DNA of 64,000 nucleotides from Pseudoxanthomonas sp. (GTDB lineage Bacteria; Pseudomonadota; Gammaproteobacteria; Xanthomonadales; Xanthomonadaceae), in contig NZ_PKDG01000014.1 of assembly GCF_002863005.1 (NCBI RefSeq), positions 62,001 through 126,000 of the forward strand, in the 5' to 3' direction. The notes under the pieces were generated by a model. That model was not told where the DNA came from. It made no database searches and was given only the letters and a program-made list of their open reading frames with translations. The number at the start of each line of letters is the position of its first letter. The stretch's first letter is position 1. Shown here piece after piece: positions 37,615 to 48,582 of this stretch. The position numbers and the translations under genes were made by a program.

Positions 37615-38142
37615 TCATTGCGGGACGCGGCGGATCTTCGATACGTCGTAGCCCAGCGCTTCGATCTGCCGGATGCGCGCCTGGTAATCGGTGTCGGGAA
37701 TCTGCGGCGTGCGCGCCATCAGCCAGACGTAATCGCGCTTGCTGCGGCCGACGATGGTCTGCTGGTAATCGGCATCGACCCAGGCGATGACATATTCGGC
37801 CTGGATCGGCCAGACGAACTGCATGTCCCAGACCGCGCCGCCGCCGTCCGGCTTCACCGTGCCGACCGGATGCATGGTTTTCTCCGGACCGTCCAGCGCG
37901 CCCTTGCGGAAGCGGAAGGTGGTCTGGATGCGGCCGTCCGGCATGCGGGCGTAGGACTCGACCGCCTTGTAGGCCTCCCGCTCCGGGAAGGAGGGGATGT
38001 GGGCGATGACGTACCAGTCGCCCATGAAGCGGTCCACGTCCACCGGTGCGGCGGTCGGGATGGAAGGCTTGACGTTGCCGGAGCGGCATGCGGCGGTCGT
38101 CGCGACGACCAGTGCGAGTACGAGAAAGGGCAGGGTACGCAT
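37615..38142 (-). CDS. Outer-membrane lipocalin (Blc-like)
   Basis: Lipoprotein of the bacterial lipocalin family, 175 residues, that binds lipids or fatty acids in its barrel. The lipoprotein signal ends in VATTAAC (Cys 19). The lipocalin start motif FMGDWYVIAHIPSF is at about 39-52, and the barrel ends near DYVWLMARTP. It is the last of seven genes in the lipid-modification operon, starting 1 base after the stop of the second methyltransferase. A role in carrying modified or damaged lipids is inferred from this context. Confidence 0.88.
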   Translation of the reverse strand: MRTLPFLVLALVVATTAACRSGNVKPSIPTAAPVDVDRFMGDWYVIAHIPSFPEREAYKAVESYARMPDGRIQTTFRFRKGALDGPEKTMHPVGTVKPDGGGAVWDMQFVWPIQAEYVIAWVDADYQQTIVGRSKRDYVWLMARTPQIPDTDYQARIRQIEALGYDVSKIRRVPQ

Positions 38143-38143
38143 G

Positions 38144-39226
38144 TCAGTGCCCCCGCGCCGGACGCTGGAACCGGTAATGCGCCACCAGCCACTCCTGGCC
38201 GTTGCGGTAGCCGAACAGCTCCGCGCACGCCATCCAGAACATGCGCCAGCGCTGGTTCCACAGCGCGGCGGCATCGCCATACGCCTCGCGCAGCACGCCC
38301 ATCACCGCTTCGCGGTTGGCGTCGTGCCGGGCCAGCCAGTGGTTGGCGGTGCGCTGGTAATGCGTGCCGTCGAGCAGCCAGCGCTCCTGCAGGTGCAGGT
38401 GGTCCTGGAAGAACAGCAGCAGGTCGGCCGACGGCATCATGCCGCCGGTGAAGAAGTGCCGGCCCATCCAGTTGTCCTCGCCCTGCGTCTCGAAAGGATA
38501 CATCAGGTGGCGGTGGACGAAGATGTGCACGAACAGCGCGCCGCCCGGGCGCAGCGCATCGTGGATGCGGCGCATCAGTGCGGCATGGTTGCTGACGTGC
38601 TCGAACATCTCCACCGACACGCAGCGGTCGAACGCCTGCGGTTCCAGTTGCAGCTGGTTCACGTCGCAGGTGATGACGCGCACGTTGCGCAGGCCGCGCT
38701 CGGCGCAGCGCGCTTCGATGAACTGGCGCTGCGAGTTCGAATTGGACACGGCGGTGATGCGCGCGTTCGGATAGCGCGCAGCCATCCACAGGGTCAGCGA
38801 ACCCCAGCCGCAGCCCAGCTCCAGGATGTCCTGCCCGTCGGCCAGCGCGGCGCGCTCGCCGTACAGCGCCAGCATCGCCTCTTCGGCCTGGTCGAGCGTT
38901 TCCGCGCCGGTCGGGTAGTAGCAGCTGCTGTACTTCAGCCGTCCGCCGAGGCAGTGACGGAAGAAATCGGCCGGCAGTTCGTAGTGCTGCCGGTTGGCGG
39001 CATCGGTATGCACGGCAAGCGCGCCCTGGCGCAAGGCGCGCAGGCGGTGCGCCAGCAACGCGGATTGCGCTTCCTGGCCGCCTTCGCTTTCGTCGCGCAG
39101 TCGCTGGGCGCACAGCTGGCGGATGCCGGCGCGGATCGCCGCATCGGGCAGCAGGCCACGTTCGGCCAGGCCCAGCAGGCCCGGGGCAGCCTTGTCGGCA
39201 GCCAGTTCTTCCACCATCGCGTTCAT
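38144..39226 (-). CDS. Cfa-like SAM-dependent methyltransferase, second copy
   Basis: Class I methyltransferase of the cyclopropane-fatty-acid-synthase family, 360 residues. SAM motif: ILELGCGWGSLTLW near residue 136. VEMFEHVS keeps the active-site Glu and VHIFVHRH the later His. In place of the YSC motif whose Cys helps bind bicarbonate in E. coli Cfa, it has YSSCYY. Its sequence is closer to the plant coclaurine-N-methyltransferase-like branch than to classical Cfa. It overlaps the DUF1295 gene by ATGA. It probably methylates an unsaturated acyl chain, but the product is not known. Confidence 0.85.
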   Translation of the reverse strand: MNAMVEELAADKAAPGLLGLAERGLLPDAAIRAGIRQLCAQRLRDESEGGQEAQSALLAHRLRALRQGALAVHTDAANRQHYELPADFFRHCLGGRLKYSSCYYPTGAETLDQAEEAMLALYGERAALADGQDILELGCGWGSLTLWMAARYPNARITAVSNSNSQRQFIEARCAERGLRNVRVITCDVNQLQLEPQAFDRCVSVEMFEHVSNHAALMRRIHDALRPGGALFVHIFVHRHLMYPFETQGEDNWMGRHFFTGGMMPSADLLLFFQDHLHLQERWLLDGTHYQRTANHWLARHDANREAVMGVLREAYGDAAALWNQRWRMFWMACAELFGYRNGQEWLVAHYRFQRPARGH

Positions 39227-40020
39227 CGTGTCGCCTCCTCGGCGGCGGGTTTGGGAAACCAGGGGAACAGCATCGGCGTCGTGCGCTGGTACTCGCGGTA
39301 GTCGTCGCCGCGCGTGCGCAACGCCTGCGCTTCCGTATACGGGATGCCGCTGATCCAGCGCAGGAACACGTACATCACCACCGGCCCGCACCACGACAGC
39401 CACGCCCACGGCGAACCGACGGCGAGCGCGATGTAGGCGAACCAGTGCAGCCACTCGAAGAAATAGTTCGGATGGCGCGAATACCGCCACAGCCCGTCTC
39501 GGCAGGTCTTCCCGCGGTTGCCGGGGTCGGCACGGAAGCGTGCCAGCTGGCGGTCGGCGATGGCCTCGCCGGCCACGCTCGCGATCCAGATCGCCACCGC
39601 CAGCACGAGCCATGGCCATGCGCTGTCGACAGGGCTGCGCGCGGCCGCGGCGAAGGGCAGTGCGAACAGCACCACCAGCAGTGCCTGCGCCATGAAGAAC
39701 AGGAACAGCTTGCCCTGGTGGCCTTGCCAATGCTCGCGGAGGTACCGGTAGCGGCCGTCTTCGGGCTCGCTGCGCACGCGGTGCCAGAGATGCAGCGCAA
39801 GGCGCGCACCCCAGGTCCCGCCCAGCACGGCAAGGACCGCGCGGGCCTGCCAGGCGCCGTCGCCGAGGGCGGCCAGCAGCACCGCCGCGCCGCCCACGCA
39901 GGCCGACCACAGCACGTCGACGATGCCTGTGTTCTCGTGCCGTCGCTGCCACCGCCAGCCCAGCGTCATCACGACGGCAGCGAGCACCGCGACCAGCACC
40001 AGGGCGGAGAGGGAGCTCAT
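39223..40020 (-). CDS. DUF1295 membrane protein
   Basis: Polytopic inner-membrane protein, 265 residues, with about seven hydrophobic segments, DUF1295 family. This family shares a fold with steroid 5-alpha-reductases and isoprenylcysteine methyltransferases. The family signature is visible: GLWRYSRHPNYFFEWLHWFAY (about 180-200) and a later RTRGDDYREYQRTTPMLFPW. It lies between two Cfa-like genes with ATGA overlaps on both sides. A reductase acting on an unsaturated or methylated acyl chain is inferred from fold and context only. Confidence 0.88.
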   Translation of the reverse strand: MSSLSALVLVAVLAAVVMTLGWRWQRRHENTGIVDVLWSACVGGAAVLLAALGDGAWQARAVLAVLGGTWGARLALHLWHRVRSEPEDGRYRYLREHWQGHQGKLFLFFMAQALLVVLFALPFAAAARSPVDSAWPWLVLAVAIWIASVAGEAIADRQLARFRADPGNRGKTCRDGLWRYSRHPNYFFEWLHWFAYIALAVGSPWAWLSWCGPVVMYVFLRWISGIPYTEAQALRTRGDDYREYQRTTPMLFPWFPKPAAEEATR

Positions 40021-41267
40021 GCGGCCTCCGACACGTGGCCGGGGCGCGCCATCAGCACGTGCGACACGCCGATGGAACGCTCGAGGAAGCCGCCCTCGCA
40101 GTACGCCAGGTAGAACTCCCACAGGCGGATGAAGCGCTCGTCGAATCCCTGCGTGCGTACCTCGGCCAGGCGGGTCATGAAGCGACGGCGCCATGCGCGC
40201 AGCGTGTACGCATACGACAGGCCGAAGTCTTCCTGGTGCACCACCTGCAGGTCGCTGGCCCGTGTCTTCGCGGCATACATCGCACTGAGCGACGGGATGA
40301 AACTGCCAGGGAAGACGAAGCGCTTGATGTAGTCCACCGAATCGCGTGCCTGCGCATAGCGGTGGTCTTCGATGGTGATCGCCTGCAGCAGCGCCCGGCC
40401 ACCGGGGCGCACCAGGCTGCCCAGCTTGCCGAAGAACGTCTCCAGGTACTGCGCGCCGATCGCTTCGATCATTTCGATCGACACCAGCTTGTCGTACTGC
40501 CCCTGCAGGTCGCGGTAGTCCTGCAGCAGCAGCGTCACCCGGTCCTGCAGGCCGGCAGCGGCCACGCGGGCGCTGGCCAGCGCGTGCTGTTCGCGCGAGA
40601 TCGTGGTCGTGGTGACGTGGCACCCGTAGTGCCGTGCCGCGTGCAGGGCGAAACCGCCCCAGCCGGTGCCGATCTCGACCACGCGATCGCCCGGAACCAG
40701 CGCCAGCTTCCGGCACACCGCATCGAGCTTGCGGTACGACGCGGTGTCCAGGTCGTCGTCCGGCGAGGCGAACATCGCCGACGAGTACATCAGGTCCGGC
40801 GACAGGAACAATGCGAAGAAATCGTTGCCCAGGTCGTAGTGCGCCGCGATGTTTCGACGGCTGCCTTCGCGCGTGTTGCGGCGGAGCGCATGCCAGCTGC
40901 GCAACGCCCAGCCACCGAGCCGGGCCAGGCCGCCTTCCATGCCGTCGAGCAGTGCGCGGTTGCGCACCAGCAATCTCACCAGCGCGACCAGGTCGTCGCA
41001 ACGCCACTGGCCGGCGATGTAGGACTCGCCGGCGCCCACGCTGCCCTGCGCGGCGACCGCGCGATAGAACGCGGCATCGTCGATCCACAGGTGCACCGCG
41101 GGCAGCGCGTCGCCACCGGTCCGGCCGAAACGGTGCTCGCCCAGCGCATCGCGTACCACCAGCATGCCGTGGTCCAGCGCGTCCAGGCGCGCCAGCAACT
41201 GCGAGCGCAGCAGGCGGTCGAGCGCGCCGTAGGAAGAAACGGCAGTGACGTCGGCGATCTCGTTCAT
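40017..41267 (-). CDS. Cfa-like SAM-dependent methyltransferase, first copy
   Basis: Cyclopropane-fatty-acyl-phospholipid synthase family protein, 416 residues with an extra N-terminal domain of about 110 residues. SAM motif VVEIGTGWGGFALHAA near residue 193; LLLQDYRDLQGQYDKLVSIEMIEAIG carries the conserved Glu. Two positions of the E. coli bicarbonate site differ: the YSC Cys is Ser (YSSAMF) and the LLH His is Gln (LLQAIT); the late Tyr (SYAYTL) is kept. This points to methyl transfer that does not end in a ring. Coupled by ATGA to both neighbours. Confidence 0.9.
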   Translation of the reverse strand: MNEIADVTAVSSYGALDRLLRSQLLARLDALDHGMLVVRDALGEHRFGRTGGDALPAVHLWIDDAAFYRAVAAQGSVGAGESYIAGQWRCDDLVALVRLLVRNRALLDGMEGGLARLGGWALRSWHALRRNTREGSRRNIAAHYDLGNDFFALFLSPDLMYSSAMFASPDDDLDTASYRKLDAVCRKLALVPGDRVVEIGTGWGGFALHAARHYGCHVTTTTISREQHALASARVAAAGLQDRVTLLLQDYRDLQGQYDKLVSIEMIEAIGAQYLETFFGKLGSLVRPGGRALLQAITIEDHRYAQARDSVDYIKRFVFPGSFIPSLSAMYAAKTRASDLQVVHQEDFGLSYAYTLRAWRRRFMTRLAEVRTQGFDERFIRLWEFYLAYCEGGFLERSIGVSHVLMARPGHVSEAA

Positions 41268-42055
41268 GGGGTCTCGCGGGCAAGGGAAGGGTGGTCGTGG
41301 ACGGGTGTGCGCTTCAGCCACAGGCGCAGTGCCTGCCAGTGGATGCCGGTCATCACCTGCGCGGTCATCAGGGGGTAGCGCCACAGCACGCGCGCCAGCG
41401 AGGCGCCGTCCAGGGGGCGCCTCTGCAGCGTCAGCGTGGCGTCGAAGGCACGCTGGCCTTCGCGATCGACCTGCATGTGCACGCGCAGGCCGTCGTCGGG
41501 CGTACTGAAGCGCCAGTGGTAGGCGCACGCCATGGGCAGGAAGGGCGAGACATGGAAGGCCTTGTCGAAGCCCCATTCCCAGCCGTCGCCTTTCGGCACG
41601 CCGTCGCGAACGGGCAGCACGTAGCTGTGCCGCTCGCGCCAGGGCGTGTTGGTGATCTCGGCAAGCACGGCGTCCAGGGTGATGCCGTCGGGCTGGAAGC
41701 AGTAGTAGAAGCTCACCGGGTTGAACACGTAGCCGCCATAGCGCAGATGGGTCAGCAAGCGGACCGGACCTTGCGGGCGATGGCCGGTTTCGCGCGCGAC
41801 GCGGTCGCGCACGGCCTCGGCCAGGGGCTGCTCGTGGGGCGACAGGTAGTCGCTGCGACGGAATTCGGCCAGGTTGCGGCGATTCACCGACCACAGCCAG
41901 CGTCGGTCGAAGATGCGTTCCACCTCGTCCAGGTCCAGATAGAGCTGCGCCATGCGATAGCGGAAGGCGTGCGGGCGCGGCGCATGCCGCCGATGGCGCA
42001 CCCATCCTTCGTACACCGCGCTGGCGAGGTCCGCCTTGGCCGGCCCGGCATTCAT
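41264..42055 (-). CDS. DUF1365 family protein
   Basis: Soluble protein of 263 residues, DUF1365 family, function unknown. Family features: YEGWVRHRRHAPRPHAFRYR at the N-terminus, VRLLTHLRYGGYVFNPVSFYY (about 100-120) and ITNTPWRERHSYVLP. DUF1365 genes are regularly found between an FAD amine-oxidase-like gene and a Cfa-like gene, exactly as here, so it is thought to act in the same lipid pathway. ATGA overlaps join it to both neighbours. Confidence 0.9.
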   Translation of the reverse strand: MNAGPAKADLASAVYEGWVRHRRHAPRPHAFRYRMAQLYLDLDEVERIFDRRWLWSVNRRNLAEFRRSDYLSPHEQPLAEAVRDRVARETGHRPQGPVRLLTHLRYGGYVFNPVSFYYCFQPDGITLDAVLAEITNTPWRERHSYVLPVRDGVPKGDGWEWGFDKAFHVSPFLPMACAYHWRFSTPDDGLRVHMQVDREGQRAFDATLTLQRRPLDGASLARVLWRYPLMTAQVMTGIHWQALRLWLKRTPVHDHPSLARETP

Positions 42056-43335
42056 GCCGGCACCGGTGCGTCTTCGCGGATCACGGGACCTGCCGCGTGC
42101 TGGGCCTCGAATGCCTCGACCAGCGCGCGCGCGCTGCGGATGCCATCCTCGTGGAAGCCCCAGCCCCAGTACGCGCCGGCGAACCAGGTACGCCGCACGC
42201 CCTGGATCTCGGCCTTGCGCCGCTGCGCCGCCACCATGGCATGGTCGTACACCGGGTGCCGGTAGTGCATGCGTCGCAGGACGCGCGCCGGATCGATGGC
42301 CTCGCTGCGATTGAGCGTCACCACGAACGGCTCCGGCGAGTCGATACCCTGCAGCAGGTTCATGCAGTAACTCACCGTGCAGGGCGCGGCGGGATCGGCG
42401 GGAAGATGCGCGTTCCACGCGGCCCAGGCCTTGCGATGGCGCGGCAGCAGGCGGGCATCCGTGTGCAGCACGGTGTCGTTGGACTGGTAGCGGATCGCGC
42501 CCAGCACGCCGCGCTCGCGCGCGTCGGCATCGTGCAGCAGGCGCAGCGCGTCGTCGCTGTGGCAGGCCATCACCACATGATCGAAACGTTCGGTTCCGGT
42601 GGCGGTCATCACGCCCACGTGCTCCTCGCAGCGGAGCACGGAATGCACCGGCGTGGAGACGCGCTCGCGCACCTTCCACCGCCGGCGCAGCGCCTCCACG
42701 TAGGTCGCCGAGCCGCCCGTCACCACGCGCCACGGCCGGCGTTCGCCGAGCGTCAGCATGTGGTGGTTGGCCATGAACTGCACCAGGTAACGGGCCGGAA
42801 AGGCGAGGATGCCCTGCGGCGGCGACGACCACAGGGCCGAGGCCATGGGCACCAGGTGCTCGTCCCGGAACGCGGCGCCATAGCCGCCCTGACGAAGGTA
42901 GTCGCCGAGGGTGGGGCCCGGATCGTCGCCCTCGAGCAGCGCGGGCGCTTCGCGATAGAAGCGGGCGAGGTCGCGCAGCATGCCCCAGAAGCGTGGCGAC
43001 ACCAGGTTGCGGCGCTGGCAGAACAGCGTGTCCAGTGACGTCGCATTGTATTCCAGGCCGCTGCGCGCGCTGTGGACGGAGAAACTCATCGTCGTCGGTT
43101 GCGACGCCACGCCGAGTTCGTCGAACAACCCGCACAACAGGGGATAGTGGTCGGGGTTGAACACGATGAAGCCGCTGTCGATGCGGTATTCGCGGCCCGC
43201 CTGCACGACGGTATGCGTATGCGTGTGGCCACCGAGGTAGTCGTTGGCCTCGAACAGCGTCACCTCGTGTTGCTGCGACAACCACCAGGCCGAGGCCAGC
43301 CCGGCAATGCCCGATCCGATGACCGCTATGCGCAT
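42052..43335 (-). CDS. FAD-dependent amine-oxidase-like protein of the Cfa cluster
   Basis: Flavoprotein of 427 residues. The Rossmann motif MRIAVIGSGIAGLASAWWLS opens the protein, and VTLFEANDYLGGH and the C-terminal WFAGAYWGWGFHEDGI complete the FAD site. The family (NAD/FAD-dependent, near protoporphyrinogen and amine oxidases) is tied to Cfa-like genes; a homologue desaturates methylated fatty acids in alphaproteobacterial furan-fatty-acid synthesis (from memory). It starts 2 bases after the desaturase stop and overlaps DUF1365 by ATGA. Confidence 0.9.
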   Translation of the reverse strand: MRIAVIGSGIAGLASAWWLSQQHEVTLFEANDYLGGHTHTHTVVQAGREYRIDSGFIVFNPDHYPLLCGLFDELGVASQPTTMSFSVHSARSGLEYNATSLDTLFCQRRNLVSPRFWGMLRDLARFYREAPALLEGDDPGPTLGDYLRQGGYGAAFRDEHLVPMASALWSSPPQGILAFPARYLVQFMANHHMLTLGERRPWRVVTGGSATYVEALRRRWKVRERVSTPVHSVLRCEEHVGVMTATGTERFDHVVMACHSDDALRLLHDADARERGVLGAIRYQSNDTVLHTDARLLPRHRKAWAAWNAHLPADPAAPCTVSYCMNLLQGIDSPEPFVVTLNRSEAIDPARVLRRMHYRHPVYDHAMVAAQRRKAEIQGVRRTWFAGAYWGWGFHEDGIRSARALVEAFEAQHAAGPVIREDAPVPA

Positions 43336-43337
43336 GC

Positions 43338-44288
43338 TCAGCGCCTCGCCTTGGCCAGTACCCACGCGGGCACCGGCTTGAGATCGCGCACCAGCCCGAA
43401 CAGCGCCATTGCGCGCAGGCCGTACCAGGTCAGGTCGATTTCCCACCAGCGGAATCCCTGCCGCGCGGTGCCGGGAAAGAAGTGGTGGTTGTTGTGCCAA
43501 CCCTCGCCGAACGTCAGCAGCGCCAGCCAGAGGTTGTTGCGGCTGTCGTCGCGCGTATCGAAACGGCGGCGGCCGAAGCGGTGCGCCAGCGAATTGATGG
43601 TCACTGTGGCGTGGAACAGCACGACCGTCGAGACGAAGAAGCCCCAGACCAGCATCTGCCCGCCGCTGGTGCCGAGGTGCGGTGCCACGCGTTCCAGCAG
43701 CGCACCGACACCGTACAGCGCGGCCGCCAGCAGCACCGGCACGACGGTGTCGTAACGATCCAGCCAGCGCAGTTCGGGATAGCGCGCCAGGTCGGGGATG
43801 CGCGACCAGTCGGTGCGGAAGCCGCCCCGCGTCAGGAACCAGCCCGCATGGCTCCACCAGAATCCATGCACGGCGGGGGAATGCGGATCGGCCGCGGTGT
43901 CGGCATGGCGATGGTGGTTGCGATGGTGCGCCGCCCACCACAACGGACCGCGCTGCACGCTGGACGCGCCGATCAGTGCGAACACGAACTGCAGCACGCG
44001 CGACGTGCGGAACGTGCGGTGGGAGAAATAGCGGTGGTAGAAGCCGGTGATGGCGAACATGCGTACCGCGTACAGCACCGCGGCCACGATCACCGCCACC
44101 GGGGATACGCCGACCCAGAAAACGGCCAGGCAGGCCAGATGCATGCCGATGAAAGGGGCGGCACGCAGCCAGTCGATCCGGTCGCCACCATCCTCGTGTT
44201 CCTGCGCCGCCTGGGTGTCGAACCAGCGTCGCAGCGCCGGCAGCACACGGGGCGCCGGCGGGGGAGTGGGGGAATCGCTGGCCGGCAT
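43338..44288 (-). CDS. Acyl-CoA desaturase-type fatty acid desaturase
   Basis: Integral-membrane di-iron desaturase, 316 residues, that puts a cis double bond into acyl chains (delta-9-like). Three histidine boxes are present: HRYFSH (near 85), HRNHH (near 123) and HNNHH (near 266); four hydrophobic segments anchor it. First gene of the seven-gene lipid operon, so it could supply the unsaturated substrate for the methyltransferases below it. An ECF-type promoter motif lies 27 bases upstream of the ATG. No strong ribosome-binding site is seen. Confidence 0.93.
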
Positions 44289-44314
44289 CAGGAGGTCTCG
44301 ATCGCTTGAATCCC

Positions 44315-44343
44315 TAGTACGACCGAACGCGCGCTTTGGATGC
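44315..44343 (-). promoter_or_regulatory. Candidate ECF-sigma promoter of the lipid operon
   Basis: Read on the minus strand, GCATCC (44343-44338), 17 bases, then GTACTA (44320-44315), 27 bases before the desaturase start. The same -35-like element at the same 17-base spacing stands before the sigma gene at 45218. The ATCC part agrees with the R. sphaeroides RpoE -35 (TGATCC, from memory). Confidence 0.55.
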
Positions 44344-44354
44344 GTGAAGACCGC

Positions 44355-45137
44355 TCACCCGCAGCGGCCGACCAGTGGCGTGGCCAACGCATCGCGCAGT
44401 GCACGCGCATCCGCCGCGGCGGGCGGCTGCGGGAACACGATGCGTACGTCCTGGTGCCGGCCCTTGTCGTCGCGGATGGTGGCGATGCCGGCGAATTCCA
44501 GCAGGCGCTGGTCCGCATTGGCGTAGGTCAACTGCATCGTCGGGGCGACGAAGCCGTACCAGCGATCCAGCTTCATCGCCATGCGCTGGGCGGGGATGCC
44601 GTTCCAGCGTACGACCTCGCCGGGATCCAGCTTCACCGGCATGAAGTCGAACCGGCTGGGCAACAGGAACGGTTGGGTCACGTCGCGTCCCGCGCGCAGG
44701 GTGTTCCAGTGCAGCCGCACGCTGGCATCGAATCCGGCATCGATGACCGCCCCGGCAGGCACGGCCAGCGTGCGCTCCTTCGCAGGTGCGCCCGCCTTTT
44801 CCCTGACATAGACCACCCGCCCGCGCTCGCTGCTGCGCACCCCCTCCCGGTAGCCGTCGCGCGCATCCTCGAAATCGAAGTCCGGCGCCTGTGCGGTCGC
44901 GCGGTCCACCACCGTCTTCCGTGCGAAGGCACGGCCATCGGGGCACCGGTAGAGGACCAGCCGCCGGGCGCTGCCTTCCTGCCGGTAGCGCCAGTGGGAC
45001 TCGCGGTACAGCACGGTATCGCCCTGGCGGGCGTAGGCGGTCGCCTCCTGCCGCAACACGCCCGTATCGGGGCGCGCGGCCGGGCTGGCCATCATCAGGG
45101 CGGCGAAGAGGGGCAGGACGGCCAGGGGACGGGTCAT
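44355..45137 (-). CDS. Secreted protein of unknown function next to sigma/ChrR
   Basis: A 260-residue product, not recognised with certainty; it vaguely resembles DUF3108-type periplasmic proteins. A signal peptide covers about 1-23 (MTRPLAVLPLFAALMMASPAARP). The body is rich in beta-strand patterns (DTVLYRESHWRYR, RLVLYRCPDGRAFARK, PSRFDFMPVKLDPGE, KLDRWYGFVAP). The ATG at 45137 is chosen because the signal peptide starts there; the long upstream open frame crosses the sigma gene. It is divergent from the sigma gene and upstream of the lipid operon on the same strand, so it may belong to the same regulon. Confidence 0.7.
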   Translation of the reverse strand: MTRPLAVLPLFAALMMASPAARPDTGVLRQEATAYARQGDTVLYRESHWRYRQEGSARRLVLYRCPDGRAFARKTVVDRATAQAPDFDFEDARDGYREGVRSSERGRVVYVREKAGAPAKERTLAVPAGAVIDAGFDASVRLHWNTLRAGRDVTQPFLLPSRFDFMPVKLDPGEVVRWNGIPAQRMAMKLDRWYGFVAPTMQLTYANADQRLLEFAGIATIRDDKGRHQDVRIVFPQPPAAADARALRDALATPLVGRCG

Positions 45138-45217
45138 GGGAGCGTGCCGAAGATGAACTGGTTCCTTCTTACGGCACGCACTGCGGGACGGATGCCTGGA
45201 CAACGTGCGCGCCCCCT

Positions 45218-45246
45218 GCATCCGAGTGCCGGTCATCTTCGTAGAG
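45218..45246 (+). promoter_or_regulatory. Candidate autoregulated ECF promoter of the sigma gene
   Basis: GCATCC (45218-45223), 17 bases, GTAGAG (45241-45246), 35 bases before the sigma ATG. It matches the motif before the desaturase gene in its first box, spacing and GTA start of the second box. Confidence 0.55.
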
Positions 45247-45281
45247 AGCGTCATCACGAACCCAGCCGGACCTGGCATACC

Positions 45282-45908
45282 ATGCCCACCGACCTCACAA
45301 GGAGACCGTCGCCCCTCCGGGCGGCACGTTCGGTGTCCACCGTTACCCCCGCCACGCGCGATGTCCACGACTGGACCGGCGACATGCTCGCCGTGGCCCG
45401 GCAGCGCGACCGCGCCTGTTTCATGCGCTTGTACGATCATTTCATGCCGCGCCTGTGCCTGTACCTGCGCGGCCTGGGCAATACCGAAGCCGTGGCCGAG
45501 GAGCTGTCGCAGGAGGCGCTCCTGCGCCTGTGGCAGCGGGCCGCCATGTACGACCCGCAGCAGGGTGCGGTGTCCACCTGGCTGTTCCGCATCGGCCGCA
45601 ACCTGCATATCGACCGCGTGCGGCGCGAGCCCGGCTGGGTACAGATCATGGAAGACGCCGGCCCGGCCGTCGACGAAGAGCTGGCGCGCCCGTTCAGTTC
45701 GGCCGAAGACCACGCCGAACATGCCCATCTGCAGCGCCGCATCGAGGACTTGCCCCCCGTGCAGGCGCGCCTGATGCGCATGTCCTACTTCGAGGCCAAG
45801 AGCCACCAGGAGATCGCCGACGAGCTGCAGATGCCGCTCGGCACCGTGAAGTCGCACCTGCGCCGCGCATTCCTGCGGCTGCAGGGCCAAGTACGAGGTC
45901 AGTCGTGA
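45282..45908 (+). CDS. ECF sigma factor, RpoE/ECF11-like (ChrR partner)
   Basis: Group 4 sigma factor of 208 residues. Region 2 (about 40-110) has FMRLYDHFMPRLCLYLRG and the -10-recognising STWLFRIGRNLHIDRVRR. Region 4 (about 150-205) has PPVQARLMRMSYFEAKSHQEIADELQ and GTVKSHLRRAFLRLQ. The SYFEAKSH segment and the overlapping ChrR-type anti-sigma gene (GTGA) place it in the group that answers singlet oxygen and organic peroxides in R. sphaeroides. The ATG at 45282 is preceded by the promoter motif at 45218; the frame further up is a shadow. Confidence 0.92.
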   Translation: MPTDLTRRPSPLRAARSVSTVTPATRDVHDWTGDMLAVARQRDRACFMRLYDHFMPRLCLYLRGLGNTEAVAEELSQEALLRLWQRAAMYDPQQGAVSTWLFRIGRNLHIDRVRREPGWVQIMEDAGPAVDEELARPFSSAEDHAEHAHLQRRIEDLPPVQARLMRMSYFEAKSHQEIADELQMPLGTVKSHLRRAFLRLQGQVRGQS

Positions 45909-46573
45909 ACCCGCACCATCATCTCGATCCTTCCACCGTGGTCAGCTACGCCGCCGGCGCACTGGCGGTCGAAGTGGCGATCGTGGCCGCCACCCACCTG
46001 GAGACCTGCGCGCATTGCCGCGCGCGCGTGGAAGACGCCGAGCGCATCGGCGGGCACCTGGTCGAGCAGCAGCAGCCCGCCGTCGCTGCCGGCGACCGCC
46101 AGGCCGAGCTGCGTGCGTCCATGTGGTCGCGCCTGGACGAGGCGCCCGCGCCGGCAACCGTGCCGCCGCCGCGCGCGCCGTATGAGGACGACGACCGCCT
46201 GCCGGCACCGCTGCATCCGTATTTCGGCACCTCGTACCGCGCTTTGAAATGGCGCTGGATGGCGCCCGGCGTGCATTGCATCCGCGCCCCCAACACCAAG
46301 ACCGGCACCCTACTGATGCTGAAGATCGGCCCGGGCCGCAGCATGCCCGTGCACAGCCATGGCGGCACCGAACTGACCCAGATCCTGCGCGGCGCCTACC
46401 ACGACGCGCTGGGCCAGTTCGCACCCGGCGACGTGGCCGACCTGGACAGCGATGTCGAACACCAGCCGGTCACCGTGCCCGGCACGGCCTGCATCTGCGT
46501 GTCGGCCCTCGACGCCCCGCTGCGCTTCCCCGGCTGGCTGGCGCAGCGCCTGCAGCCGTTGTTCAAGCTGTAG
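45905..46573 (+). CDS. ChrR family zinc anti-sigma factor
   Basis: Cytoplasmic anti-sigma factor of 222 residues that holds the ECF sigma factor until oxidative stress releases it. The zinc anti-sigma domain (about 1-85) has early histidines (PHHHLD) and HLETCAHCRA, the H-x3-C-x2-C pattern. The C-terminal cupin (about 100-215) keeps the second zinc site: HSHGGTE and the His in DSDVEHQP. Both zinc sites match R. sphaeroides ChrR. The start is GTG, overlapping the sigma stop. Confidence 0.92.
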   Translation: MNPHHHLDPSTVVSYAAGALAVEVAIVAATHLETCAHCRARVEDAERIGGHLVEQQQPAVAAGDRQAELRASMWSRLDEAPAPATVPPPRAPYEDDDRLPAPLHPYFGTSYRALKWRWMAPGVHCIRAPNTKTGTLLMLKIGPGRSMPVHSHGGTELTQILRGAYHDALGQFAPGDVADLDSDVEHQPVTVPGTACICVSALDAPLRFPGWLAQRLQPLFKL

Positions 46574-47125: not shown

Positions 47126-47331
47126 GGACGACAGGGTCGGCTCCGGATGACGGCGCGCATTCTGGCACGGCGCGCGCAGGCCGGCATGCGGATGCGGCCG
47201 GTCGACCGGCCCCTGATTGCGGACGGCGGGTCGCCGGCGCTGCCCTCGTCGTGCGATGGATCGCGCCGGCATCGTGGGGCGTGTCCCGTGCCGTCTCACG
47301 TCCTGCACGCCGACCCGGCTACGATTCGCCC

Positions 47332-48582
47332 ATGCAGTTGAAAGACAAGCTCGCGATCCTCGCCGATGCGGCCAAGTACGACGCATCGTGCGCGTCCAGT
47401 GGCGCCGGCAAGCGGCATTCGCTGGGCAAGGGCGGCATCGGCAGCACCGAAGGCATGGGCATCTGCCACTCGTACACGCCGGACGGGCGTTGTGTCTCGC
47501 TGCTGAAGATCCTGCTGACCAACTTCTGCATCTACGACTGCGCCTACTGCGTCAACCGCGTGTCCAGCAACGTGCCGCGGGCGCGATTCGCCACCGCGGA
47601 GGTGGTCCGGCTGACACTGGAGTTCTACAAGCGCAACTACATCGAGGGCCTGTTCCTTTCCAGCGGCATCATCCGCAACGGCGACTACACGATGGAGCAG
47701 ATGGTGGAAGTCGCCCGCAGCCTGCGCGAGGACCACCGCTTCGCCGGCTACATCCACCTGAAGACCATTCCCGAAGCGTCGCCGGAACTGCTGGCCGCCG
47801 CCGGGCGTTACGCCGACCGCCTGAGCATCAATGTCGAGCTGCCGACCGAGGCCGGCCTGAAGCAGCTCGCGCCGCAGAAAGAGGCGCAGGGCATCCGCGA
47901 TGCGATGGGCGAACTGCACTGGCGCATCCAGGCCGCGAAGCCCAGCAGGCAGGAAGCGCAGCCGAAGCGGAAACGTCCGCCGAAATTCGCCCCTGCGGGG
48001 CAGAGCACGCAGATGATCGTGGGCGCCGACGCGGCGGACGACCGCGCCATCCTGGTCAGCAGCGATGCCCTGTACCGCCAGTTCCGCATGCGCCGCGTGT
48101 ACTACTCCGCCTTCAGTCCCATCCCGGATGCGTCCACGCAGCTGCCGCTGCGTGCGCCGCCGCTGTTGCGCGAACACCGCCTCTACCAGGCCGACTGGCT
48201 GCTGCGGTTCTATGGATTCGACGTCGAGGAGATCGTCGATGGCAGTGGACCGCAGGACGGCATGCTCGACCTGGAGATCGATCCCAAGCTGGCGTGGGCG
48301 CTGCGGCATCCGGACCGTTTCCCCGTCGACCTGAACACCGCGCCACGCGAGATGCTGTTGCGCGTGCCGGGGCTGGGCGCGCGCAACGTTCAGCGCATCA
48401 TCGATTCGCGGCAGCAGGGCAGGCTGCGCGTTGCCGATCTTGCCCGCCTGCGCGCGCCGTTGCAGAAGGTCCTGCCGTTCATCGTGCTGCTGGACCACCA
48501 CCCGCGGCAACGCCTGGACGATCCCGTCCGGCTGCGGCGCGAACTGGCTCCGGCGCCACGCCAGGCCGATCTGTTCGGCTGA
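47332..48582 (+). CDS. Radical SAM / helix-hairpin-helix putative DNA-modification protein
   Basis: Predicted radical-SAM enzyme of 416 residues belonging to a family annotated as putative DNA modification or repair; reaction unknown. The 4Fe-4S cluster motif CIYDCAYC lies near residue 66, inside LLTNFCIYDCAYCVNRVSSN. Upstream cysteines (SCASSG, GICHSY, GRCVS) may hold another cluster. The C-terminus (about 340-390) has a helix-hairpin-helix: NTAPREMLLRVPGLGARNVQRI. A DUF4130 gene follows after 8 bases, its usual partner. Confidence 0.88.
   Translation: MQLKDKLAILADAAKYDASCASSGAGKRHSLGKGGIGSTEGMGICHSYTPDGRCVSLLKILLTNFCIYDCAYCVNRVSSNVPRARFATAEVVRLTLEFYKRNYIEGLFLSSGIIRNGDYTMEQMVEVARSLREDHRFAGYIHLKTIPEASPELLAAAGRYADRLSINVELPTEAGLKQLAPQKEAQGIRDAMGELHWRIQAAKPSRQEAQPKRKRPPKFAPAGQSTQMIVGADAADDRAILVSSDALYRQFRMRRVYYSAFSPIPDASTQLPLRAPPLLREHRLYQADWLLRFYGFDVEEIVDGSGPQDGMLDLEIDPKLAWALRHPDRFPVDLNTAPREMLLRVPGLGARNVQRIIDSRQQGRLRVADLARLRAPLQKVLPFIVLLDHHPRQRLDDPVRLRRELAPAPRQADLFG

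Follow-up and report, generated by a model that had tools for sequence, protein, structure and literature searches.

The window analysed here, a stretch of 64,000 nucleotides from Pseudoxanthomonas sp. (contig NZ_PKDG01000014.1), carries an operon that very probably encodes a pathway to furan fatty acids (FuFA), controlled by a switch of the ECF11/ChrR type. These membrane lipids are believed to take up the oxygen damage that light causes. Eight co-directional minus-strand genes, encoding a protein designated UP, a fatty acid desaturase, a flavin adenine dinucleotide (FAD) protein, a DUF1365 protein, the methyltransferase Cfa1, a DUF1295 protein, a second methyltransferase (Cfa2) and a lipocalin, lie divergently to a plus-strand gene pair for an extracytoplasmic function (ECF) sigma factor and a ChrR anti-sigma factor, with 144 nt between the two groups. 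From the encoded enzymes, the products are predicted to be mono- and dimethyl furan fatty acids and not cyclopropanes.

In the proposed pathway the desaturase would make a cis-unsaturated acyl chain, which a UfaM-type Cfa1 would methylate without cyclopropane closure. The FAD enzyme, as UfaD, would desaturate the methylated chain to a diene, the DUF1365 protein, as UfaO, would insert O2-derived oxygen to give the furan, and a FufM-type Cfa2, with DUF1295, would add a second methyl group. The lipocalin and UP would act in the periplasm and probably bind lipids that have been modified or oxidised, and the sigma factor, once freed from ChrR, would fire the sigma gene, UP and the desaturase via three GCATCC-N16-CGTA elements. 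The chemistry of UfaM, UfaD, UfaO and FufM and the sigma dependence of the homologous Stenotrophomonas maltophilia cluster have been shown in other species; we infer the gene assignments in the window, the promoter and the dimethylation, and the roles given to the desaturase, DUF1295, UP and the lipocalin are guesses. With this pathway, an operon that is induced hundreds of fold in a relative, and was interpreted there as "cyclopropane synthases and hypotheticals", would gain a chemical identity (furan, probably dimethylfuran, fatty acids). The pathway also suggests why an organism presumed not to be phototrophic has a switch of the singlet-oxygen type.

Cfa1 and the bicarbonate site

Residues of Cfa1 were read from an alignment to E. 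coli Cfa, and copies within 600 bp of a DUF1365 gene were counted as linked. Positions C139, E239, H266, I268 and Y317 we take, in both numbering and role, to form the bicarbonate-binding site of Cfa. Window Cfa1 has S, E, Q, I and Y at these positions, and the intact bicarbonate site of a cyclopropane fatty acid synthase is thus missing. The same holds for 113 of 113 distinct linked copies (115 rows), in which H266 is replaced by Q and C139 by S, A or G, with E239, I268 and Y317 kept in all 115 rows. Among unlinked CMAS copies, 26 of 28 distinct ones (29 rows) keep both C and H, the source genome's own second Cfa among them, and the other two have S and Q; six further copies, 822–5319 bp from DUF1365, comprise five with UfaM-type residues and one with C and H. 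The residue change in the bicarbonate site is taken to mark UfaM, a cis-vaccenate 11-methyltransferase, and as a CMAS protein with an altered site, linked to ufaD- and ufaO-type genes, Cfa1 is on these grounds of the UfaM type. It should transfer a methyl group without ring closure, because the altered positions presumably bind bicarbonate in Cfa.

It is accordingly improbable, in our estimate, that two true Cfa-type enzymes of the operon make acyl chains with cyclopropane rings or saturated methyl branches. In favour of this reading, CMAS is the family matched by both proteins, Cfa1 shares 40.5% identity with the source genome's own canonical Cfa, and the authors of a study on Stenotrophomonas maltophilia name the counterparts CfaS1 and CfaS2 (PMC11832516; statements from the literature refer here and below to the portions of the cited papers that were available to us). 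Set against this, Cfa1 lacks two bicarbonate-site residues, like every distinct linked copy, that are intact in the separate Cfa of the same genome, published work gives furan roles to the FAD and DUF1365 enzymes linked to it, and Cfa2 is nearer to plant N-methyltransferases than to Cfa. A pair of true Cfa enzymes was rejected on the residues. The two Cfa-like methyltransferases of the original prediction are not equivalent, Cfa1 being assigned to the UfaM type and Cfa2, probably, to the FufM type.

The FAD enzyme and DUF1365

The window FAD protein is 41–46% identical over 403–410 residues to copies at four other loci (L130, L131, L135 and L170), and the DUF1365 domain is encoded directly beside this UfaD-type FAD gene, the arrangement by which UfaO was recognised. 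We infer that the FAD protein is of the UfaD type and the DUF1365 protein of the UfaO type. UfaO, itself a DUF1365 protein, incorporates oxygen from O2 when the furan ring is formed (PMC7380195), and the earlier description of the DUF1365 step as undefined is outdated. An alignment of 55 DUF1365 proteins contains 11 invariant residues, among them H21, R23, Y145 and K165. The structural model features a confidently predicted β-barrel-like fold with a C-terminal helix (predicted local distance difference test score, pLDDT, 95), for which no PDB match was obtained at E ≤ 0.001; weak structural leads point to fatty-acid-binding, nitrobindin and lipocalin barrels.

Conservation of the gene set

Within the family, 50 of 99 genomes have DUF1365, the source genome included, and the surroundings of all 50 loci were read, with genes called by score thresholds. 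FAD, DUF1365 and Cfa1 genes occur at all 50, the desaturase at 49, Cfa2 at 49, DUF1295 at 48 and the lipocalin at 22; the loci missing the desaturase or Cfa2 (L082 and L085) both lie at contig ends. This co-occurrence exceeds chance. In a sample of the phylum, 94 of 299 genomes contain DUF1365, and among 40 of those loci that were fetched the FAD gene is present at 40, Cfa1 at 32, ChrR at 16, DUF1295 at 9 and Cfa2 at 7. Plasmid searches returned related genes, all below 60% identity.

Cfa2 and DUF1295

The nearest solved relatives of Cfa2 are plant coclaurine-type N-methyltransferases (251 bits, with E. coli Cfa at 92), and FufM is 37.9% identical to the Arabidopsis methyltransferase LIME1 (PMC10940516). 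In Rhodopseudomonas palustris JSC-3b, a Cfa2 relative overlaps a DUF1295 gene by 4 nt. This protein is 50.6% identical to window Cfa2 over 330 residues. Its identity to the UfaM-type protein at L135, a locus presumably from a member of the Rhodobacteraceae that served as a stand-in for UfaM of Rhodobacter sphaeroides, is 26.3% over 232 residues; the published identity of FufM (RPA0924) to UfaM is 26%, and a deletion of RPA0923 was constructed in the R. palustris study (PMC7380195). A close Cfa2 occurs in 14 of 61 genomes of one alphaproteobacterial family, and at 62 of the 80 named loci (the best 80 of 580 relatives) a DUF1295 gene stands no more than 700 bp from Cfa2. Judged by sequence and neighbourhood, Cfa2 is probably of the FufM type and is usually paired with DUF1295.

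Should only a monomethyl furan fatty acid be formed, Cfa2 and DUF1295 would modify something else, such as another lipid or a small amine. The N-methyltransferase relatives of Cfa2, a DUF1295 protein with no assigned role and the presence of Cfa2 beside FAD-DUF1365 at only 7 of the 40 phylum loci would fit such an arrangement. We nevertheless consider it unlikely, given that FufM of R. palustris is active as a methylase on 9M5-FuFA (PMC7380195), that its apparent counterpart in JSC-3b shares half of its residues with Cfa2 and adjoins DUF1295, and that Cfa2 stands within the operon at 49 of the 50 family loci.

A promoter element apparently shared by two kinds of switch

The GCATCC-N16-CGTA element precedes the sigma gene, UP and, inside the operon, the desaturase (Table 1). 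At the 12 family loci with ChrR it occurs in 21 of 24 regions upstream of the sigma gene and the operon, against a dinucleotide-shuffle mean of 0.013 and maximum of 1; the motif was spotted by eye in those same 24 regions, so that the shuffle test is partly circular. Independent of motif discovery are the desaturase-proximal site, present at 7 of 7 ChrR loci having UP, and likewise the RskA loci described below. The element between UP and the desaturase fits the 66 nt that separate the UP gene from the desaturase downstream on the same strand, and would allow transcription of seven genes without UP. Judged by sequence, the sigma gene and its putative targets share this candidate promoter. The source genome contains 23 exact sites, three same-genus genomes without DUF1365 contain 15, 13 and 10, and six genomes with no regulator beside the operon contain 6 to 10. 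Many genomic sites are attributed to chance, because genomes without the operon or an adjoining regulator have 6 to 15 of them. A reversed-pattern control (23 sites versus 3) was dropped as too lenient given these background counts, and only promoter position and conservation were used as evidence for sites.

The anti-sigma factor is ChrR at 12 of the 50 family loci and of the RskA type, with another ECF sigma factor, at 17 (RskA_C match of 76.8 bits at L037); neither was present in the stretch read at the remaining 21. Four RskA-type sigma factors are 22–26% identical to that of the window, and sigma factors of the two kinds fall into distinct clades. No more than 200 bp from an operon or sigma gene, the element is present at 11 of 12 ChrR loci, 15 of 17 RskA loci and 1 of 21 loci with neither, and within 320 bp before the desaturase at 11, 12 and 1 of these loci, respectively. 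Elsewhere in the genome, ChrR exceeded the cut-off in a single one of 17 RskA genomes and in no genome of the 21 with neither pair, and sub-cut-off matches were found in 10 of 41 genomes searched. At the 21 loci with neither pair, no obvious dedicated regulator was found within 2.6 kb upstream (open reading frames (ORFs) judged by eye; one locus gave no ORF), and two of them have a distant ECF-like ORF about 0.9–1 kb away.

That the neighbouring sigma factor does not drive the operon is highly improbable. The 21 family loci that have the core genes with no ChrR or RskA pair in the stretch read, and the element in only one of them, are what such an arrangement could appeal to; opposed to it are the three elements in the window, the operon- or sigma-proximal element at all but one of the 12 ChrR loci and RNA-seq evidence from S. 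maltophilia (PMC11832516).

Since the element is kept at both ChrR and RskA loci, two different sigma/anti-sigma pairs appear to share one promoter. The idea of a swap is not wholly new, because a SigK/RskA-like pair replacing ChrR was already remarked on in Rhodobacter capsulatus (PMC7074977); the newer point is the retention of the promoter across the sensor swap, and a promoter common to two sigma families would make sensor swapping directly testable.

Comparison with known systems

The operon and its control are already published in S. maltophilia and are not new. There, RNA-seq showed smlt2375-smlt2367 raised 165- to 697-fold when chrR was mutated and lowered again when the sigma factor was removed as well, and the rpoEc-chrR-chrA genes and this cluster are arranged like the window, with a divergent sigma/ChrR pair (PMC11832516). 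The gene order is alike by annotation alone: periplasmic hypothetical, desaturase, FAD oxidoreductase, cytosolic hypothetical, CfaS2, inner-membrane hypotheticals, CfaS1 and lipocalin (PMC11832516). The S. maltophilia cluster has nine genes, two of them inner-membrane hypotheticals, whereas the window has eight with one, its Cfa1 and DUF1295 genes overlapping directly; chrA follows chrR in S. maltophilia, whereas no chrA follows ChrR in the window, where the next gene is on the other strand (chrA was not searched for elsewhere). The word "furan" is absent from the main text of that paper (PMC11832516).

In R. sphaeroides and R. palustris, furan fatty acids with one or two methyl groups are formed by the enzymes UfaM, UfaD, UfaO and FufM (PMC7380195). 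The furan genes are counted among the core members of the sigma-E/ChrR regulon and are described as required for ChrR turnover under singlet oxygen (PMC6852236). The window resembles these systems in its putative UfaM, UfaD, UfaO and FufM types of enzyme and in ECF11/ChrR control, but joins all four types with a desaturase, DUF1295 and a lipocalin, whereas ufaM of R. sphaeroides (RSP2144) lies apart from RSP1087-1091. The interpretation in the original prediction is supported in part: three of its proposals, a membrane-lipid operon, a relation to methylated and furan fatty acids and likely sigma/ChrR control, hold.

More distant parallels exist. An RskA-type pair, as in mycobacterial SigK/RskA, heads the same operon at 17 of the 50 family loci, the window itself having ChrR. 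Rv0449c-Rv0446c of Mycobacterium tuberculosis presumably match the FAD, DUF1365, UfaA1 and DUF1295 proteins. The sigK gene of this species is autoregulated from the Rv0449c promoter (PMC7509140). In Chlamydomonas, a eukaryote with another regulator, SAK1-dependent singlet-oxygen genes include CFA1, CFA2, DUF1365, DUF1295, fasciclin, MSRA3 and DUF2177 (PMC4067076), families that also occur here or in relatives. In Arabidopsis, homologues of the UfaM/D, UfaO and FufM enzymes are located at lipid droplets (PMC10940516).

Several points weigh against a furan-fatty-acid pathway in this organism. Among the inspected matches of a literature search, no lipid data were found for the family. Activation in S. 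maltophilia raised tolerance to superoxide and not to singlet oxygen in the assays used (PMC11832516). The homology of Cfa2 to FufM is based on the JSC-3b protein and not on RPA0924, with L135 only standing in for UfaM, and two canonical Cfa proteins of JSC-3b kin are 34.8% and 32.2% identical to the L135 protein, the published value for RPA3082 being 38%. Finally, DUF1365 is absent from three of three other genomes of the genus examined, and the pathway is therefore dispensable there; gain or loss of the operon may have occurred among members of the genus.

Wider candidate regulon

A promoter-position rule, which fails to capture the UP and sigma sites of the window itself, was passed by 9 of 22 sites in the source genome (22 of its 23 were scored). 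The nine genes encode the desaturase, two more lipocalins, GTP cyclohydrolase I, photolyase, an Oxidored_molyb (MsrP-like) protein, fasciclin, DUF4426 and DUF1275. The two lipocalins (L285 and L300, on contigs 1 and 10) match PF08212 with 115 and 168 bits and start 23 and 35 bp behind the element, and three lipocalins may answer to this sigma factor. Responders in R. sphaeroides include photolyase, fasciclin and folE2, which belongs to another GTP cyclohydrolase family (PMC7074977).

With two operon sites left out for each, promoter-like sites make up 8 of 16, 5 of 15 and 0 of 8 in the RskA genomes G035, G061 and G038. The ChrR genome G037 has 0 of 4 (4 of its 9 sites were fetched, and two others lie in the operon). 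Among genomes with neither pair, G022 has 3 of 10, none convincing, and G096 has 3 of 10, before genes for a SigK-like-looking sigma factor, MsrA and fasciclin. FolE and UP recur behind the element in G035 and G061, to which G035 adds BLUF, fasciclin and an outer-membrane barrel and G061 adds DUF2177; FolE of G035, BLUF and DUF2177 were assigned by Pfam, and UP, the G035 fasciclin and barrel, and FolE of G061 were recognised from sequence. Support in other genomes for the co-regulated gene candidates is therefore mixed. The BLUF blue-light sensor protein of G035 (L359) is encoded 40 bp behind the element.

On a broader proposal we are evenly divided: that the furan-lipid genes form one old photo-oxidative regulon, defined by GCATCC-N16-CGTA and served by interchangeable ChrR or RskA pairs, in which the sensor is exchanged between lineages but promoter and output are retained, with green algae inducing several of the same families under singlet oxygen. 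Its members would be the furan pathway, DUF1295, lipocalin, fasciclin, FolE, photolyase, methionine sulfoxide repair, DUF2177 and UP.

Operon layout and neighbouring genes

The desaturase-to-lipocalin block consists of seven tightly packed minus-strand genes (37615–44288). The FAD/DUF1365, DUF1365/Cfa1, Cfa1/DUF1295 and DUF1295/Cfa2 junctions are 4-nt overlaps, and gaps of 2 nt and 1 nt separate desaturase/FAD and Cfa2/lipocalin; the sigma and ChrR genes overlap by 4 nt. ChrR matches TIGR02451 with 163.8 bits against a cut-off of 124.5, and does not reach the stricter equivalog NF051881 (159.1 versus 300). The genes, strands, overlaps and gaps reported earlier agree with the ORF coordinates and their families with Pfam and NCBIfam, and the position beside an ECF sigma/ChrR pair holds as well. 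The seven-gene operon stands in all seven genes; the eighth gene, UP, and the promoter elements had been missed.

Table 1. Genes and promoter elements of the operon and the divergent sigma/ChrR pair (window coordinates).
Feature	Position	Strand	Basis
UP (eighth gene, 260 aa)	44355..45137	-	ORF; without Pfam/NCBIfam family
Fatty acid desaturase, FA_desaturase PF00487	43338..44288	-	Pfam
FAD amine-oxidase-like protein (Amino_oxidase), putative UfaD type	42052..43335	-	Pfam, identities
DUF1365 protein, putative UfaO type	41264..42055	-	DUF1365 295.5 bits
Cfa1, putative UfaM-type acyl methyltransferase	40017..41267	-	CMAS match; C139->S, H266->Q
DUF1295 membrane protein, distant Steroid_dh likeness	39223..40020	-	DUF1295 230.3 bits
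Cfa2, putative FufM-type methyltransferase, coclaurine-N-methyltransferase-like	38144..39226	-	CMAS match
Blc-type lipocalin, Lipocalin_2 PF08212	37615..38142	-	143.1 bits
ECF sigma factor	45282..45908	+	sigma-70 r2/r4
ChrR anti-sigma factor, GTG start	45905..46573	+	TIGR02451
GCATCC-N16-CGTA before sigma gene	45218..45243	+	motif
GCATCC-N16-CGTA before UP	45170..45195	-	motif
GCATCC-N16-CGTA before desaturase, inside operon	44318..44343	-	motif

UP is a secreted-type protein that matches no family in Pfam or NCBIfam and is present at 18 of the 50 family loci. Its predicted structure has a pLDDT of 87.7 and bears a weak Foldseek likeness to VioE, DUF1849, RseB, LprG and LolA folds, from which no function was assigned. 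The periplasmic hypothetical Smlt2375 of S. maltophilia is its counterpart by position. UP-like copies, spotted by eye, lie elsewhere in genomes of RskA relatives (L355 and L384) with a promoter element before each. UP may travel independently of the lipid operon.

One gene past ChrR, the plus strand encodes a putative DNA modification/repair radical SAM protein (47251–48582; TIGR03916, 567 bits), which could fit a photodamage neighbourhood.

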